A stretch of DNA of 64,000 nt from Halorubrum sp. CSM-61 (GTDB lineage Archaea > Halobacteriota > Halobacteria > Halobacteriales > Haloferacaceae). The first letter of the stretch is position 1, and the number at the start of each line of letters is the position of its first letter. Below the pieces are notes generated by a model. The model was not told the origin of the DNA and searched no databases. It was given only the letters and a program-made list of their open reading frames with translations. This document shows, piece after piece, positions 8,130 to 57,370 of the stretch. The DNA lies in the NCBI RefSeq assembly GCF_003781945.1, contig NZ_RJJW01000005.1, positions 178,102-242,101 of the forward strand, written 5' to 3'. Both the position numbers and the translations under genes were made by a program.

Positions 8130-10187
8130 TCAGGGCCGACGGCGCGCGACGAGCGCGACCGCGATCAACGCGATCAGGGCGACGACCGCGCCGAAGCCGG
8201 GCGTTTCGTCGCCGCTCCCGCCGCCGTCGCTCATCTGGTCGTCGTTCATCTCGTCGTTCTCGCCGTCGATCCCGTCGTCGTCATCGGCGTCTCCGTCGTT
8301 CTCCCCGTTCACCTCGTCCCCCGTCTCGGCGCCCTCGACCGTCAGATCGGCGGCGGACATCACCGGCGAGCCCGCGGCCGCGTACGGGCCGTCTTCGGCG
8401 CCGTCACTGCCGGGGAAGTCGTAGGCCTCGTTGCCGTTCGTGTCGCGGTGCGCCATCGCGAAGACCGTGTCGCCCTCGGTCAACGGGTCGTCGAGCGCGA
8501 TCTCGACGTCGGTGTGCGTTCCCGGTCCGAGGTACGCGCTGGTGCCGCGGATGGAGTCGAACACGGCGCCGTCCGCGAGCGAGGAGTCGTGAACCGTCAC
8601 GAATCCGCCGTCGTGGAGCGTCACCGAGCCGACGACGACGGTCTCGCCGTCGGTGTCTTGCGCGCTCGCGTCGACGAACGCGGTCACCTGAGCGCTTGCG
8701 CCGACCGTCGCCGGAGCGTCGTCGCCGGTCAGGAAGGGACCGTCGGCGTCTCCCTCGCTATCGACGAAGTCGTACGCCTCGTTGCCGTTCGTGTCGCGGT
8801 GTGGCATCGCGACGAGCTGTTCGGTGTCCGTCAGCGGCTCGTCGAGCTCGATCGCCACGTCCTCGTGAACGCCGGCCTCCAGGTACGCGCTGGTGCCGCG
8901 AACGGAGTCGAACACGGCGCCGCCCCCGATCGAGGCGTCGTGGATCGTCACGAACCCGCCTTGGCTCAGGTCGACGCGGTCGACCGTGACCGTCGCGCCG
9001 TCCGAATCGCTCGTCTCGAACGCGACGCCCGCGGAGACGGTGACGTTCCCGTCGTCCATCACGATGTCCGACGAGTCGGTCGTGTACGGGCCGTCCTCGC
9101 TGCCGTCGCTTTCGGGGAAGTCGTACGCCTCGTTGTCGTTCGTGTCCCGGTGCGCCATCGCGAACAGCGCGTCGTCCTCGGTCAGCGGGTCGTCGAGCCG
9201 AACGACGACGTCGCGGTGGATCCCCGGGTCGAGGTACGCGCTGGTGCCGCGGACGGAGTCGAAGGTCGCGCCGTCCGCGAGCGAGGAGTCGTGCATCGTC
9301 ACGAACCCGCCCTCCGGCAGGTAGACCTCGTCGACGACGACCGCGTTGCCGCCGGACGACTGCGCGGCGAAGCTCGCCCGCGCGTCGTCGTCGAGCTCGA
9401 CGCCGATCCCGGCCATCACGATCTCGTCGTTCGCGTCGAGGTACGGGCCGTCCTCGTTCCCGTCGCTTTCGGGGAAGTCGTAGGCCTCGTTGTCGTTCGT
9501 GTCCTGATGCGCCATCGCGAACACCGTGTCGTCGTTCTGTAGCGGCTCGTCGAGCCGGACGCGGACGTCCTCGTGGACGCCGGCCTCCAGGTACTCGGTG
9601 GTGCCGCGGATGGAGTCGAACACAGCGCCGTCCGCGAGCGAGGAGTCGTGAACCGTCACGAACCCGCCGTCGCTCAGCTCGACGCGGTCGACGATCACGT
9701 ACTCGCCCTCGCCGGGCTGGTCGGTCCCGGTCACGCTCGCGGAGACCGTCACGTTCGCGTCGTCCATCGCGACGTCGCCGTCGACCGTGTACGGACCGTC
9801 GGTCTCGCCGTTCGAGGAGACGAACGCGTACGCGCGGTCGCCGTCTGTGTCTCGGTGCGCCATCGCGTGGAACGTCCCCGTCTCCACCGCGTCGGTGAGC
9901 TCGACGGTCACGTTCTCGTGCGTCCCCGACTCGAGGTACGCGCTCGTGCCGACGACGCTCCCCAGGGTGTCGCCGTCGGTCAGCGATGAGTCGTGGATCG
10001 TCACGAACCCGCCATCGGGGAGGTGAACCTCGTCGACGACGACCGCGCTCCCGCCGGACGTGCCGTCGGCGAAGCTCACGCTCGCCGCGTCGGTACCGCT
10101 CTGTGCCGCGACCGCGCCAGCCGCGCCGGCGACCGCCGACACGACCACCACGACCGCCATCGCCAATGTCAATGCGCTGTTGCGCAT
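8130..10187 (-). CDS. Secreted surface protein, five DUF7282 repeats, PGF-CTERM anchor
   Basis: A 685-residue protein with a Sec signal peptide (MRNSALTLAMAVVVVVSAVA), five repeats of about 100 residues, an Asp/Glu-rich spacer, and a C-terminal PGF-CTERM tripartite signal (ETPGFGAVVALIALIAV then RRRP). Each repeat has GGFVT(I/V)HDSSL, GTSAYL, an MAHRDTN motif and EAYDF; the Asp/Asn-rich DTNGNEAYDF segment could bind divalent cations. Archaeosortase A should remove the tail and lipid-anchor the protein. The start at 10187 gives the signal peptide and sits 27 bases from a TATA box. The role on the surface is unknown. Confidence 0.88.
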   Translation of the reverse strand: MRNSALTLAMAVVVVVSAVAGAAGAVAAQSGTDAASVSFADGTSGGSAVVVDEVHLPDGGFVTIHDSSLTDGDTLGSVVGTSAYLESGTHENVTVELTDAVETGTFHAMAHRDTDGDRAYAFVSSNGETDGPYTVDGDVAMDDANVTVSASVTGTDQPGEGEYVIVDRVELSDGGFVTVHDSSLADGAVFDSIRGTTEYLEAGVHEDVRVRLDEPLQNDDTVFAMAHQDTNDNEAYDFPESDGNEDGPYLDANDEIVMAGIGVELDDDARASFAAQSSGGNAVVVDEVYLPEGGFVTMHDSSLADGATFDSVRGTSAYLDPGIHRDVVVRLDDPLTEDDALFAMAHRDTNDNEAYDFPESDGSEDGPYTTDSSDIVMDDGNVTVSAGVAFETSDSDGATVTVDRVDLSQGGFVTIHDASIGGGAVFDSVRGTSAYLEAGVHEDVAIELDEPLTDTEQLVAMPHRDTNGNEAYDFVDSEGDADGPFLTGDDAPATVGASAQVTAFVDASAQDTDGETVVVGSVTLHDGGFVTVHDSSLADGAVFDSIRGTSAYLGPGTHTDVEIALDDPLTEGDTVFAMAHRDTNGNEAYDFPGSDGAEDGPYAAAGSPVMSAADLTVEGAETGDEVNGENDGDADDDDGIDGENDEMNDDQMSDGGGSGDETPGFGAVVALIALIAVALVARRRP

Positions 10188-10216: not shown

Positions 10217-10314
10217 AGGTTTCCCGAACTCCCGCCGATTTCTCACCCAAATTCGTTCGGAAAGCGGCCCAAAACGAATTTTCAAGGGCTGGCGTGCCGG
10301 TTCTCGGAACAGCA

Positions 10315-10782
10315 GTGATGGACTGCGGGAGTGAGTATTGCAGATCGGTGGTGGCGACAGGATATTTAAAAGAACCGCGAGCGATAGCAACGCTCATTTA
10401 TAAAGAATTGTGCTGTGGCGCGCGCCTTCGAGTGGCCGCCAACGGCGGCCACGAGAAGCGCCGCGCGAGGGAGTCAGTCGCCCGGAGTAACGCGGAGGGC
10501 GACTGACGAGGCTGGGGAGGCGTGAGGCGCGGGGTGGTTGCGGTGTGGGTGGGACTTAAAGGGGCAGCCGCGAGGACGGCGCAGGCGACGTAAGCACCGC
10601 AGCAAAGGAGCGTCAGCGACTGAGCGAGGAGCGCAGCGAGCGTGCGCCGTCCTCGCGGCTGGGGCTTTGCAGTCTTCTCCGCAGCGTTGCCGATCGCTTA
10701 TAAACAGCCGCGAGCAACGTCACTCGCTCATTTATAAACAACCCAACTACCATCTCGATATACTCACTCCCGCCATCGATCA
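10315..10782 (+). repeat. Dispersed structured element, copy 1 (forward, with terminal inverted repeats)
   Basis: This noncoding element has terminal inverted repeats sharing GCGGGAGTGAGTAT (left 10315-10340, right 10757-10782). From left to right it has an AT box with TTTATAAA (10397-10404), a hairpin with stem GTGGCCGCC, an 11-bp hairpin (10473-10483 with 10497-10507), the constant block GAGGCTGGGGAGGCGTGAGG, then GTGGGACT, AAAGGGG and a perfect 19-bp stem (10565-10583 with 10643-10661, 59-nt loop) ending GGGGCTTT. TATAAA boxes recur at the right end. The short reading frames inside are not conserved between copies, so I treat it as noncoding. Confidence 0.85.
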
Positions 10783-10844
10783 AGCTGCACCCCGGCGCTC
10801 GCGGATAGTCGCGCGACGGTACGGTAAAAACAGTCCCGACCGAT

Positions 10845-13984: not shown

Positions 13985-14100
13985 TTGACATCCTCCCCGC
14001 GCTGAAGCGCGAGGATTCCCACGGCGCTGCACCGCTGGGTTGGGATATTGTGGTTTACGACGTGACCTGTTTTTGAGGCGCGAACGCGCCAGTTTCCGTG
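13985..14100 (-). ncRNA. Putative omega RNA (TnpB guide RNA) scaffold
   Basis: In characterised TnpB systems the guide RNA runs from the 3' end of tnpB through the right-end hairpins, and the guide is the sequence just past the element. Here that region carries a CCCA/TGGG hairpin, the CGCGCT/AGCGCG hairpin and a final GTCAA. The guide would be read from flanking bases 13984 down to about 13965. This position is inferred by analogy; no transcript evidence is available. Confidence 0.4.
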
Positions 14101-15335
14101 TCAAACAAGAACGTCGATGGCTGTGCCAACCAGCCGTTACTCCTATTCACCGAGAGATTCGGTGAACTCGGAGATACTTTCTGTCGAATGTTCTCAGCAC
14201 CGTTCACATCCGCGTTCGCCGTCGTCCCGCACTCATCACACACATACAGCCCGCGTTCAACACGGTTCGCGTCACGCTTTCGACCACAGCACGAGCACGA
14301 CTTCGAGGTATCCCGCTCAGACACGTGTTCAACCGTGATACCTTCCATCTCCGCCTTGTACTCGAGGAGATCGGTGAAGCGGTCGAACGCCCACGAGTGC
14401 AGGTCGAGATTCCCGTGTCTACCCCAATCCTTTGACTCGCCGTTCTCCTCATCCTCACGGATGCCGGAGAGATCACCCACCACGATCGTTCCAACTTCTT
14501 CGTCAACACACCGCTGGACGATGTGTTTTGAGAGCGTGTGGAAGTAGTGAGTACGGCGAGCTGACTTCTTCTGGTTTAGCCGCGTGGCCTGCTCGGAGTT
14601 CGAATCGTCACACCGAGCGATTCGCTTGCTGAAGTAGTAGTCGTCCTGTTTCAAGCAATTCAGCGGGTATAGCTCGCTGTGACCGTCTTCATAAGCGAGC
14701 GCAGCGAAGTTGTTGATACCGAGATCAACACCCACGGTTTTCTCACCCGGGGCTTCATCTACGTCGATTTCGACCTTACAGACAAATTGTAGTTCCCACT
14801 CGTCGCCCGTCCAGACAATCTTGACTTGTTGAACGTTCTCCACGGTGGAAAGGTCAACGTCGGGGCGGGTCTGGTACTTACACAGGACGAAGTCCGACCA
14901 GTACTCCTTGAGGTTCGAGCCTTTTGAGAGTCGGACTCGGTCGTACTGAGTGTCGAGTTTGAATCCAGCGGTTTTGAACGTCACCGTCGAACGCGGGTGT
15001 TCGTCGCCGTGTTTGCGGTAGCCGGGCGGGTTCGCTTTCGTGTCTCCGTTGCGTCGCTTGCCGTACCAGCCGTTGAACGCCTCAGCGAGTTCTTGAAGGA
15101 CTCGCTGACTTGACTGAGAATGGAGGTCATCGTAGCGTTCGTGTGACTTCAGGTACGTGGTGAGTTCGTTATGGTTCGGGATGTGGCCGATTTCATCCCA
15201 GATCCGACTACACGTCCACCGTCCAACGTTCCAGAGCTTACTGGCTGCGAACCCGAGCGAATCAAGGTCGTCCGACACCCGTGACTGATTCCGTATGGAA
15301 GCAGCGTAGGTGCGAGTAACGACCTGTTTCGCCAT
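14055..15335 (-). CDS. tnpB: TnpB RNA-guided nuclease of IS1341-type element
   Basis: A 426-residue TnpB: N-terminal OrfB helix-turn-helix region, RuvC-I Asp in VGVDLGINNF (about D204), a zinc finger CSCCG plus CDECG (about C347, C350, C366, C369), and RuvC-III Asp in NADVNGAENI (about D376). At the RuvC-II strand, where Glu is expected before DL, the sequence is TIVVGDLSGI with Gly; nearby Glu residues (294, 296, 297) might replace it. TnpB cleaves DNA guided by the RNA from the element's right end. Codon use is less GC-biased than in neighbours. Confidence 0.9.
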   Translation of the reverse strand: MAKQVVTRTYAASIRNQSRVSDDLDSLGFAASKLWNVGRWTCSRIWDEIGHIPNHNELTTYLKSHERYDDLHSQSSQRVLQELAEAFNGWYGKRRNGDTKANPPGYRKHGDEHPRSTVTFKTAGFKLDTQYDRVRLSKGSNLKEYWSDFVLCKYQTRPDVDLSTVENVQQVKIVWTGDEWELQFVCKVEIDVDEAPGEKTVGVDLGINNFAALAYEDGHSELYPLNCLKQDDYYFSKRIARCDDSNSEQATRLNQKKSARRTHYFHTLSKHIVQRCVDEEVGTIVVGDLSGIREDEENGESKDWGRHGNLDLHSWAFDRFTDLLEYKAEMEGITVEHVSERDTSKSCSCCGRKRDANRVERGLYVCDECGTTANADVNGAENIRQKVSPSSPNLSVNRSNGWLAQPSTFLFDTETGAFAPQKQVTS

Positions 15336-18927: not shown

Positions 18928-19290
18928 TGGTGTTGCTGTCGGCTGTTTATCGTCGATCGACGGCTCTACGGTGAAGACCTGCAAAGCCCAGCCGCTCGGC
19001 GATACGCAGGTGCCATCGATCCGACTACGAAGACCTCCAAAGCCCCAGCCGTGAGGCGGGCGCACGCTCGCCGCGCTCCTCGGTCGTTCGCGGTGCTCAC
19101 TCCCTACGGTGCTCGCGTCGCCTGCGCCCGCCTCACGGCTGCCCCTTTGAGTCCCACCCGACCGCACAGCAACCGCGCCTCACGCCTCCCCAGCCTCGTC
19201 GGCCGGCGCTTATAAGCGCCGGCCGACTCCCTCGCGCGTGCTCCTCGCGCCCTGTGGGCGCTCGGAGGCACGCGCCACCGCACCATCCTT
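18928..19290 (-). repeat. Dispersed structured element, copy 2 (reverse orientation)
   Basis: Reverse complement of the copy-1 architecture. Its 19-bp stem is 19046-19064 with 19123-19141 (58-nt loop), flanked by AAAGCCC and CCCCTTT. The second hairpin slot holds a perfect 15-bp palindrome at 19198-19227 with TTATAA at its tip. The outer stem GCGCGTGC/GCACGCGC encloses a small GCGCCC hairpin. The right-end segment GAAGACCT..AAAGCCC occurs twice (18973-18994 and 19029-19051), suggesting a nested or duplicated end. Terminal inverted repeats are not evident, so this copy may be truncated. It lies between the convergent prs and acetyltransferase genes. Confidence 0.8.
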
Positions 19291-19341
19291 TGTGTCCATC
19301 GAGCCGCTTCTGCCCGTTCTGAGAGGTTTCGACGGGGAGAT

Positions 19342-25252: not shown

Positions 25253-25257
25253 CTGAC

Positions 25258-25743
25258 GGATCGCGGGAGTGGGTATAGCACATTGGTTGATCGGTTGTTT
25301 ATAAGCGATCGAGTGGTGTTGCTGGCGGCTGTTTATAAGTGATCGAGTGGTGTTGCTGGCGGCTGTTTATAAGTGATCGACGGTATTGCGGTGAAGACCT
25401 GCAAAGCCCCAGCCGTGAGGGCGGCGCACGCTCGCTGCGCGCCTCACTCGGTCGCGTTGCTCCCTCGTTGCGGTGCTCGCGTCGCCTGCGCCGCCCTCAC
25501 GGCTGCCCCTTTGAATCCCACCCGACCGCTCAGCACCGCAGCCTCACGCCTCCCCAGCCTCGCGGTTCGCGCTCTGCGAGCGCTCACCGCGTCCCTCGCA
25601 CCGTCGGTTCGCGGCCCTGCGGGCCGCTCACCGGGGCGCGCCACCGCATCGTATTTATAAGCAAACGTCGCCGTCGCTCACGGCTATTTAAATACTCACT
25701 CGCCACCACCGATCTGCGATACCCACTCCCGCTATCGATCACA
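25258..25743 (-). repeat. Dispersed structured element, copy 3 (reverse orientation, intact ends)
   Basis: The ends are inverted repeats sharing GCGGGAGTGGGTAT (left 25258-25279, right 25716-25743). The 19-bp stem is 25410-25428 with 25487-25505 (58-nt loop). Constant blocks are in reverse: CCCCTTTGA, CCTCACGCCTCCCCAGCCTC. The hairpin slots hold GCGGCCC/GGGCCGC and CGCGGT-GCGCT stems. TATAA boxes lie at both ends, including three in a 34-bp tandem array at 25296-25373. The right end abuts the stop of the DUF1616 gene. Confidence 0.85.
25296..25373. repeat. 34-bp tandem repeat with TATA-like boxes
   Basis: Units at 25296-25329 and 25330-25363 differ by one base; a third unit starts at 25364 and diverges after GATCGA. 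Each contains TGTTTATAAG and GATCGA. Related single units occur at the same position of copies 1 and 2. Confidence 0.85.
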
Positions 25744-31762: not shown

Positions 31763-32210
31763 GATCGACGGCGGGAAGTACGGTAGCAACGAGAGCAACC
31801 ACGGATCGAGGCGGTGCGGTGGCGCGTGCCTCCGAGTGGCCGCCGAAGGCGGCCGCGAGGAGCACGCGCGAGGTCGCCGGCGCTACGCGCCGGCTGCCAG
31901 AGGGACCTTCGGTCCCTCGCTGGACGCGGTGAGCGCTCGAAGAGCGCGAACCGCGAGGCTGGGGAGGTGTGAGGCTGCGGTCCCGCGAGCGGAGCGAGCG
32001 GGAGCACGGAAGTCGCAGCCCGCGCAGCGAACGGAGTGAGCGAGCAGGACCGTCTTCCGGCGGTGCTGTGCGGGCGGGTGGGACTCAAAGGGGCAGCCGC
32101 GAGGCGGGCGCAGGCGATGTAAGCACTGGAAGGAGCGAGCAGCGCGAGTGACTGAAGCGCGCAGCGAGCGTGCGCCCGCCTCGCGGCTGGGGCTTTGGAG
32201 GTGTCCGTCT
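31763..32210 (+). repeat. Dispersed structured element, copy 4 (forward)
   Basis: Forward orientation like copy 1. The left end (GATCGACGGCGGGAAGTA) is a weak match to the terminal repeat; no clear right repeat was found, so the right boundary is approximate. Hairpin slots: GGCCGCC/GGCGGCC (about 31837-31854) inside GCGCGTGC/GCACGCGC, a GCCGGCG palindrome, AGGGACC/GGTCCCT, and CGCGGT-GCGCT/AGCGC-ACCGCG. The constant block is at 31956-31975. The 19-bp stem is 32094-32112 with 32171-32189 (58-nt loop). It contains an extra segment of about 60 bases with GAGCGGAGCGAGCG repeats. Confidence 0.8.
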
Positions 32211-32298
32211 CGTCACTCGCGGGATCCGTGATAGGCGCGTATAACCGATCAACCACCCCGAAAACCACTTATAAACCCCGATCCGCGTACCGCCTCGC

Positions 32299-57175: not shown

Positions 57176-57370
57176 CGATCGCGGGGATGGGTGTCGCAGA
57201 GGTGACACCAGTGCGTATTTAAATAGACCCGAGCGACGGCGACGATAGCTTATAAAGAACAACGCGGTGGCGACAGCACGCGCGAGGGAGTCAGTCGCCA
57301 GCGACACCACCGCCCGACTTATAAACAACCAGTCGACCGACGTACGACACGTACTCCCGTGATCGATCGA
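57176..57370 (+). repeat. Dispersed structured element, copy 5 (internal-deletion derivative)
   Basis: It keeps both terminal inverted repeats (57176-57197 and 57345-57370, degenerate matches), the left AT-box region (GTATTTAAATAG, then CTTATAAAG), the block GCGGTGGCG, GCACGCGCGAGGGAGTCAGT and the right ACTTATAAACAACC, but lacks the constant block and the 19-bp stem. The sequence jumps from the second hairpin slot to the right end. At 195 bases it is under half the length of copies 1 and 3. Confidence 0.78.

Follow-up and report, generated by a model that had tools for sequence, protein, structure and literature searches.

The window, a 64,000-nt stretch of the Halorubrum sp. CSM-61 genome, carries five copies of an intergenic, structured repeat family with ~183 cores in this genome. 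Next to copy 1, one minus-strand gene (8130-10160) contains five ~351-bp tandem repeats (8373-10092) of ~117 residues each, and on the minus strand at 13994-14179 there is a 166.9-bit match to Rfam sot0042 (sense overlapping transcript, IS1341-type transposase genes). The parts of copy 1, including its terminal repeats (TIRs), and the positions of the other copies are as follows.

10316..10782, plus strand: copy 1, full-length (arms and core), TIRs at 10316-10338 and 10760-10782 (blast, TIR pattern)
10316..10338, plus strand: left TIR TGATGGACTGCGGGAGTGAGTAT of copy 1 (alignment of own copies)
10365..10370, unstranded: left outer AT box TTTAAA of copy 1, ~33 nt upstream of the inner box and conserved in full-length copies
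10397..10404, unstranded: left inner TATA-like box TTTATAAA of copy 1
10412..10422, plus strand: conserved block GCTGTGGCGCG of copy 1 (family consensus GCGGTGGCGCG)
10418..10467, plus strand: hairpin 1 of copy 1 (fold and covariation)
10473..10507, plus strand: hairpin 2 of copy 1, its sequence swapped wholesale among copies with pairing always kept
10508..10527, plus strand: invariant linker GAGGCTGGGGAGGCGTGAGG of copy 1, with 183 occurrences in the own genome
10557..10669, plus strand: hairpin 3 of copy 1 (AAAGGGGCAGCCG...CGGCTGGGGCTTT), with a variable apical part (fold and covariation)
10698..10704, unstranded: first right-end TATA-like box of copy 1
10732..10738, unstranded: second right-end TATA-like box of copy 1, 34 nt further
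10760..10782, minus strand: right TIR of copy 1 (alignment of own copies)
19029..19291, minus strand: copy 2, an armless core that has no left box
25254..25741, minus strand: copy 3, full-length; left box CTTATAAA at 25654-25660, right boxes at 25366-25372, 25332-25338, and 25298-25304
31814..32275, plus strand: copy 4, core lacking left arm and left box, into which double-hairpin modules are inserted; box in the tail at 32269-32275
57177..57368, plus strand: copy 5, arms present and core mostly deleted; left box CTTATAAA at 57250-57256, right box at 57319-57325

Distribution and structure of the repeat family

Copies fall into two types. Full-length copies consist of a TIR, an AT box, a TATA box, the core, usually two further TATA boxes, and a second TIR, and they span 427 to 530 nt between the TIR cores; copies 1, 3, and 5 are of this type, the intact ones with 23-bp TIRs. 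The second type is the armless core, to which copies 2 and 4 and most copies in relatives belong. The core is ~265 nt long, and about a third of copies sit in TIR-bearing arms. A blast search with copy 1 (best 40 candidates scored) recovered at least 46 stretches in the own genome, where the core linker GAGGCTGGGGAGGYGTGAGG matched 183 times (control, 0; up to two mismatches) and the left terminal repeat CGGGAGTRNGTNTNGCAGATCGG 47 times (reversed control, 0). With up to one mismatch, all 35 genomes of the genus carry the linker (177 matches in the own genome and 13 to 193 in each of the other 34), and the same scan, which took in 292 genomes of the class, found it patchily outside the genus. 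Exact linker matches among named genomes were mostly in Halorubrum, with Haloparvum, Halorussus, Halosimplex, and Halobellus also represented.

The copy-1 site is occupied in six species including our own, and a seventh has a degenerate remnant; at this site in L088 the core is lost and the boxes are still kept. Copies have been gained and lost between close relatives. Several element-free relatives had rearranged flanks, and no exact insertion junction could be obtained from these empty sites. Core deletions were found in L084, L088, and window positions 57177-57368; the L084 junction lies between two GGCTGGGG direct repeats, which suggests that cores may be lost by a repeat-mediated route that leaves box-bearing arms. 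Flanks outside the TIRs (e.g., L003, L008, L025, L029, L010, L023, L024) often hold another repeat starting GGCTCTGTTGAAATCC, which looks like an IS or MITE end; its left and right halves differ, as if the element may have inserted in the middle of a second mobile repeat.

The core comprises three hairpins; an alignment of 44 cores revealed compensatory double changes at 30 of the 48 pairs predicted. The copy-1 core fold reached a z score of -6.35 against shuffles, and the conserved unpaired parts of the core include the linker and a GGG/GGG internal loop of hairpin 3. Because an energy-only strand test was weakly informative (-1.6 ± 0.65 kcal/mol), we counted wobble pairs instead: G-U outnumbered A-C by 86 to 20, by 62 to 11 without two doubtful pairs, and by 14 to 6 in pair positions, figures that are indicative and not a probability, since the aligned rows are related. 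From this excess of G-U over A-C, the strand under selection appears to be the plus strand, read as RNA. We conclude that the core probably acts as a folded plus-strand RNA. A closing stem around the whole core (GCGGTG/CACCGC) was plausible in the consensus and was rejected, as deviating copies do not compensate when inspected by eye. Over positions 10300-10800, Rfam gave no match near any family cutoff.

The stems vary in several ways among copies. Four own cores (L029, L057, L072, L075) and window positions 31872-31925 carry inserted double-hairpin modules of ~46 to 55 nt, each composed of two unrelated palindromes with a short GCAA/GCCAA-like linker and ending in TGAC or CTGC; the layout is constant, and the stem sequences are wholly different between modules. 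At the copy-1 site, the apical segment of hairpin 3 is inverted in one relative (L082, compared with L081 and L086), as expected from recombination between stem arms. Identical hairpin-2 cassettes were found at unrelated sites within and between genomes (L277 and L285 in G068; L270 in G031), which suggests that copies may undergo gene conversion, i.e., concerted evolution.

TATA-like boxes of the element

The left-end boxes that the first-pass annotation had pointed out in copies 1, 3, and 5 are present, each ~8 nt before the (G)GTGGCG block. It had also described the right-end boxes as lying in the opposite orientation, which did not hold up. TTATAA is palindromic, so its orientation has to be read from the flanks; the flanking letters (left, CGATCGCTTATAAA; right, CGATCACTTATAAACA) give the same direction at both ends, making the right boxes direct repeats of the left box. 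The window also contains right boxes beyond those named at first pass, which had likewise lacked the outer left box. The 64-kb window has 12 occurrences of TTATAAA versus 0.07 expected from dinucleotide shuffles, and all 12 lie within an element or its tail or directly beside one.

Among full-length copies of the own genome, TTATAA lies within 30 nt of the block in 43 of 49, and 44 of 49 intervals between right boxes measure exactly 34 nt; within the arms of full-length copies, both left boxes and the right boxes rank among the best-conserved positions. In armless copies the right tail is often built of 57-nt units, and the left box, positioned 14 nt before GCGGTGGCG, is the sole conserved, information-bearing feature upstream of that sequence. 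Exact TTATAA was present in 47 of 125 armless copies (own, 16/33; others, 31/92) compared with 20 of 1,310 stretches after ordinary stop codons (1.5%), and a looser TATA-like definition was matched by 61 of 125 compared with 103 of 3,930 background windows (2.6%; p ~1e-55). About half of the armless copies have lost the left box; even without TTATAA, its position is AT rich (0.47 to 0.63 versus ~0.33). At sites shared with two close relatives, hairpins are replaced wholesale, and the letters of the box vary and are TATA-like at most sites; at one orthologous site the box reads TTTATAAATA, TTTATAAAC, and GATATAAAC, all TATA-like. The boxes are a conserved, intrinsic part of the element. A separate idea, that TTATAA might be a target-site duplication, was discarded: the left box of a copy resembles the right boxes of that copy no more closely than shuffled boxes do, and the boxes are therefore not target duplications.

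The left box was found in 0 of 21 cores of two other genera (two genomes outside the genus, ~90 copies each). It is a feature of the Halorubrum lineage and not a universal part of the core. It follows that the core structure does not need the box, and a promoter reading is lowered by this result without being removed.

Promoter potential and competing explanations

A haloarchaeal promoter consists of a BRE (CGAAA), a TATA element (TTWT), and a -10 WW element (PMC4983044), and in halovirus HF2 the TATA element lies at -26 (PMC8707807). A matrix learnt from 659 upstream regions of genes called in this lineage reproduced the published pattern, with CGRAA followed by TTWW ~29 nt before leaderless starts. 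Scored with this matrix, the TATA part of the element boxes is at the motif maximum (median, 7.59 bits), and the BRE part is negative in every orientation (medians, -0.9 to -4.4). Of the four readings in full-length copies, the inward one of the left box scored best (median, 5.99) and exceeded the native median in 43% of cases, and the inward one of the right boxes scored worst (median, 3.09) and exceeded it in 0 of 89; in armless copies the boxes showed no strand preference. The -10 WW element is absent, a GC block occupying that stretch. At native spacing, the predicted start from the copy-1 left box falls at ~10424 to 10427, within the 5' side of the hairpin 1 stem; the lower pairs of that stem also covary, and an RNA driven by the box would lose them. 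An earlier proposal that the elements may be transcribed inward as a structured RNA is supported as to the structure, with its covariation and plus-strand wobble bias, and is half right at most as to inward transcription from both ends: the left box read inward resembles a promoter in its TATA part only, and the right boxes score worst inward.

All copies lie outside called genes (0 of 226 inside), the calls being those of our own codon-usage caller and not a standard annotation. Among 213 placed copies, 104 were between convergent, 79 between co-directed, and 30 between divergent genes, compared with 24, 222, and 129 among 375 gaps that contain no element and measure 100 nt or more, a contrast that is inflated because the element itself lengthens gaps; 95 of the 183 own cores were taken into these statistics. 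Between co-directed genes, the two orientations were about equally common for armless copies (30 versus 28) and unequal for full-length copies (17 versus 4; p = 0.007). The left box often lies tens of bases after a stop codon, and in armless copies the presence of a TATA box is independent of a co-directed gene upstream.

We tentatively favor the reading that the left box is a weak, lineage-specific inward promoter of a structured RNA. That this RNA would be made, that the left box would make it, and what the RNA would do are points that we infer. The elements are noncoding extragenic repeats whose three-hairpin core would work as a plus-strand RNA. In the Halorubrum lineage this core has a TATA-like box at a fixed place closely upstream, and its right tail holds boxes of a similar kind. 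The left box would serve as a weak, BRE-less TBP site from which the core is transcribed rightward. The right boxes, which repeat the left motif directly in the tail or right arm, would, if active, start transcription outward and against the convergent neighbor. The role of the RNA would probably be a 3'-end or insulating one, by analogy with REP-type repeats between convergent genes. As a mutant of copy 1, we propose replacing the left box TTTATAAA with GCGCGCGC.

A different function for the boxes, which we consider somewhat unlikely, would be to serve as DNA signals marking the ends of an element that moves or recombines (subterminal AT-rich sites bound by a transposase or recombinase, or easily melting ends) and not as promoters. 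Boxes at both boundaries of armless copies, their regular spacing in full-length copies (34 nt on the right, ~33 nt on the left), the missing BRE, the lack of strand preference in armless copies, and the absence of boxes where the family differs, in two other genera, would all suit such signals, as would the 23-bp TIRs and the turnover of copies between close relatives. Nevertheless, the boxes degenerate in a TATA-like fashion and not as an exact site would, and the left box persists after the rest of the arm has been lost. Nor was a target duplication seen at the boxes or outside the TIRs, where no direct repeat rose above shuffled pairs in 29 copies, or an autonomous partner with these ends, as all 47 left-TIR matches in the own genome belong to the element itself (divergent transposon partners would escape this search). 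Hitchhiking, by which AT-rich boxes that once belonged to an ancestral insertion site or arm were carried along in copying and now lack a role, would agree with their lineage specificity and with the half of armless copies that lack a box; we regard it as quite improbable, because upstream it is the box alone, and not its surroundings, that is kept in armless copies and orthologues.

The convergent placement (104 of 213 copies versus 24 of 375 gaps) instead invites the view that the element is a two-sided 3'-end module whose hairpins and AT-rich borders stop or process the transcripts of convergent neighbors, the borders acting at termination. The stop codons that in many copies precede the left box by tens of bases, the palindromic nature of the boxes at either end, and the indifferent orientation of armless copies between co-directed genes are in line with it, but the wobble bias indicates that one strand matters, the hairpins are not followed by a T-run, full-length copies are biased in orientation, and the convergent bias could be mere promoter avoidance; we judge it clearly unlikely. 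The other suggestion made at first pass, that the elements supply promoters to neighboring genes found no support and is highly improbable. It could draw on the near-perfect TATA part and on halovirus HF2, whose intergenic repeats provide a precedent for carrying promoters (PMC8707807), but copies are underrepresented between divergent genes and sit at 3' ends, only ~10 of 64 full-length copies have a right neighbor that points away from them, and a right-end box lies at a usable distance for a following leaderless gene in only ~2 of ~66 copies with a gene pointing away, so that promoter supply is not the rule.

Returning to the inward-promoter reading, its broadest form would be a genus-wide family of ~100 to 200 structured RNA genes per genome, each a three-hairpin RNA initiated at its own TATA-like box, kept mainly between convergent genes, with constant linkers and interchangeable stems and with no described counterpart; taken as a whole, this is rather unlikely. 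Should the core RNA be made, the haloarchaea of this genus would carry a copy of the same folded RNA about every 20 kb; its freely exchangeable stems and invariant linkers would then suggest a binding protein or processing step shared by the copies. The family is also relevant to how archaea keep convergent genes apart, and even if the boxes were mere end signals, each genome would offer ~180 natural variants for studying TBP-site function without a BRE.

Comparison with known repeats

REP/BIME sequences are bacterial extragenic palindromic repeats at gene 3' ends, and the criteria for them include a guide tetranucleotide and a RAYT transposase. The present element resembles them in its many extragenic copies, their concentration at 3' ends, its modular hairpins with constant linkers, and its concerted variation; it differs in being longer (~265-nt core) and archaeal, in its TATA-like borders, and in the TIR-bearing arms of about a third of copies. 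Compared with MITEs, full-length copies have the 23-bp TIRs, whereas the armless majority has none, and the target-site duplication expected of a MITE was not seen in the 29 copies compared.

Among haloarchaeal repeats, the SMRs of Haloquadratum are transposase-free sequences of ~80 to 110 bp with inverted terminal repeats and no target duplication, and PATEs lack inverted terminal repeats and derive from IS605 ends (PMC3119063). By these descriptions, full-length copies are like SMRs in their inverted terminal repeats, in the lack of target duplication, in that no gene is called across a copy, and in flanks that often hold another repeat, but at 427 to 530 nt they are longer; as to the PATE description, full-length copies have TIRs and armless cores have none. 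The 489-bp PATE of HRTV-DL1, found in Halorubrum and its virus, is noncoding and strongly transcribed in infected cells (PMC10544981). It is likewise a noncoding repeat of similar length in Halorubrum; comparison of the two sequences for identity gave one marginal 35-nt match (E = 0.05), which we took as chance, and the two were judged unrelated. The class I and II intergenic repeats of halovirus HF2 (29 to 58 bp) have proven promoter activity (PMC8707807) and share with our element an AT-rich motif within an intergenic repeat of a Halorubrum system, but they lack the hairpin core. No sequence match to the element was found in a phage collection, and no description of the repeat was found in open-access full texts. 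In our best view, the element is REP/MITE-like and best filed among REP/SMR-like extragenic repeats, with membership claimed in none of these classes.
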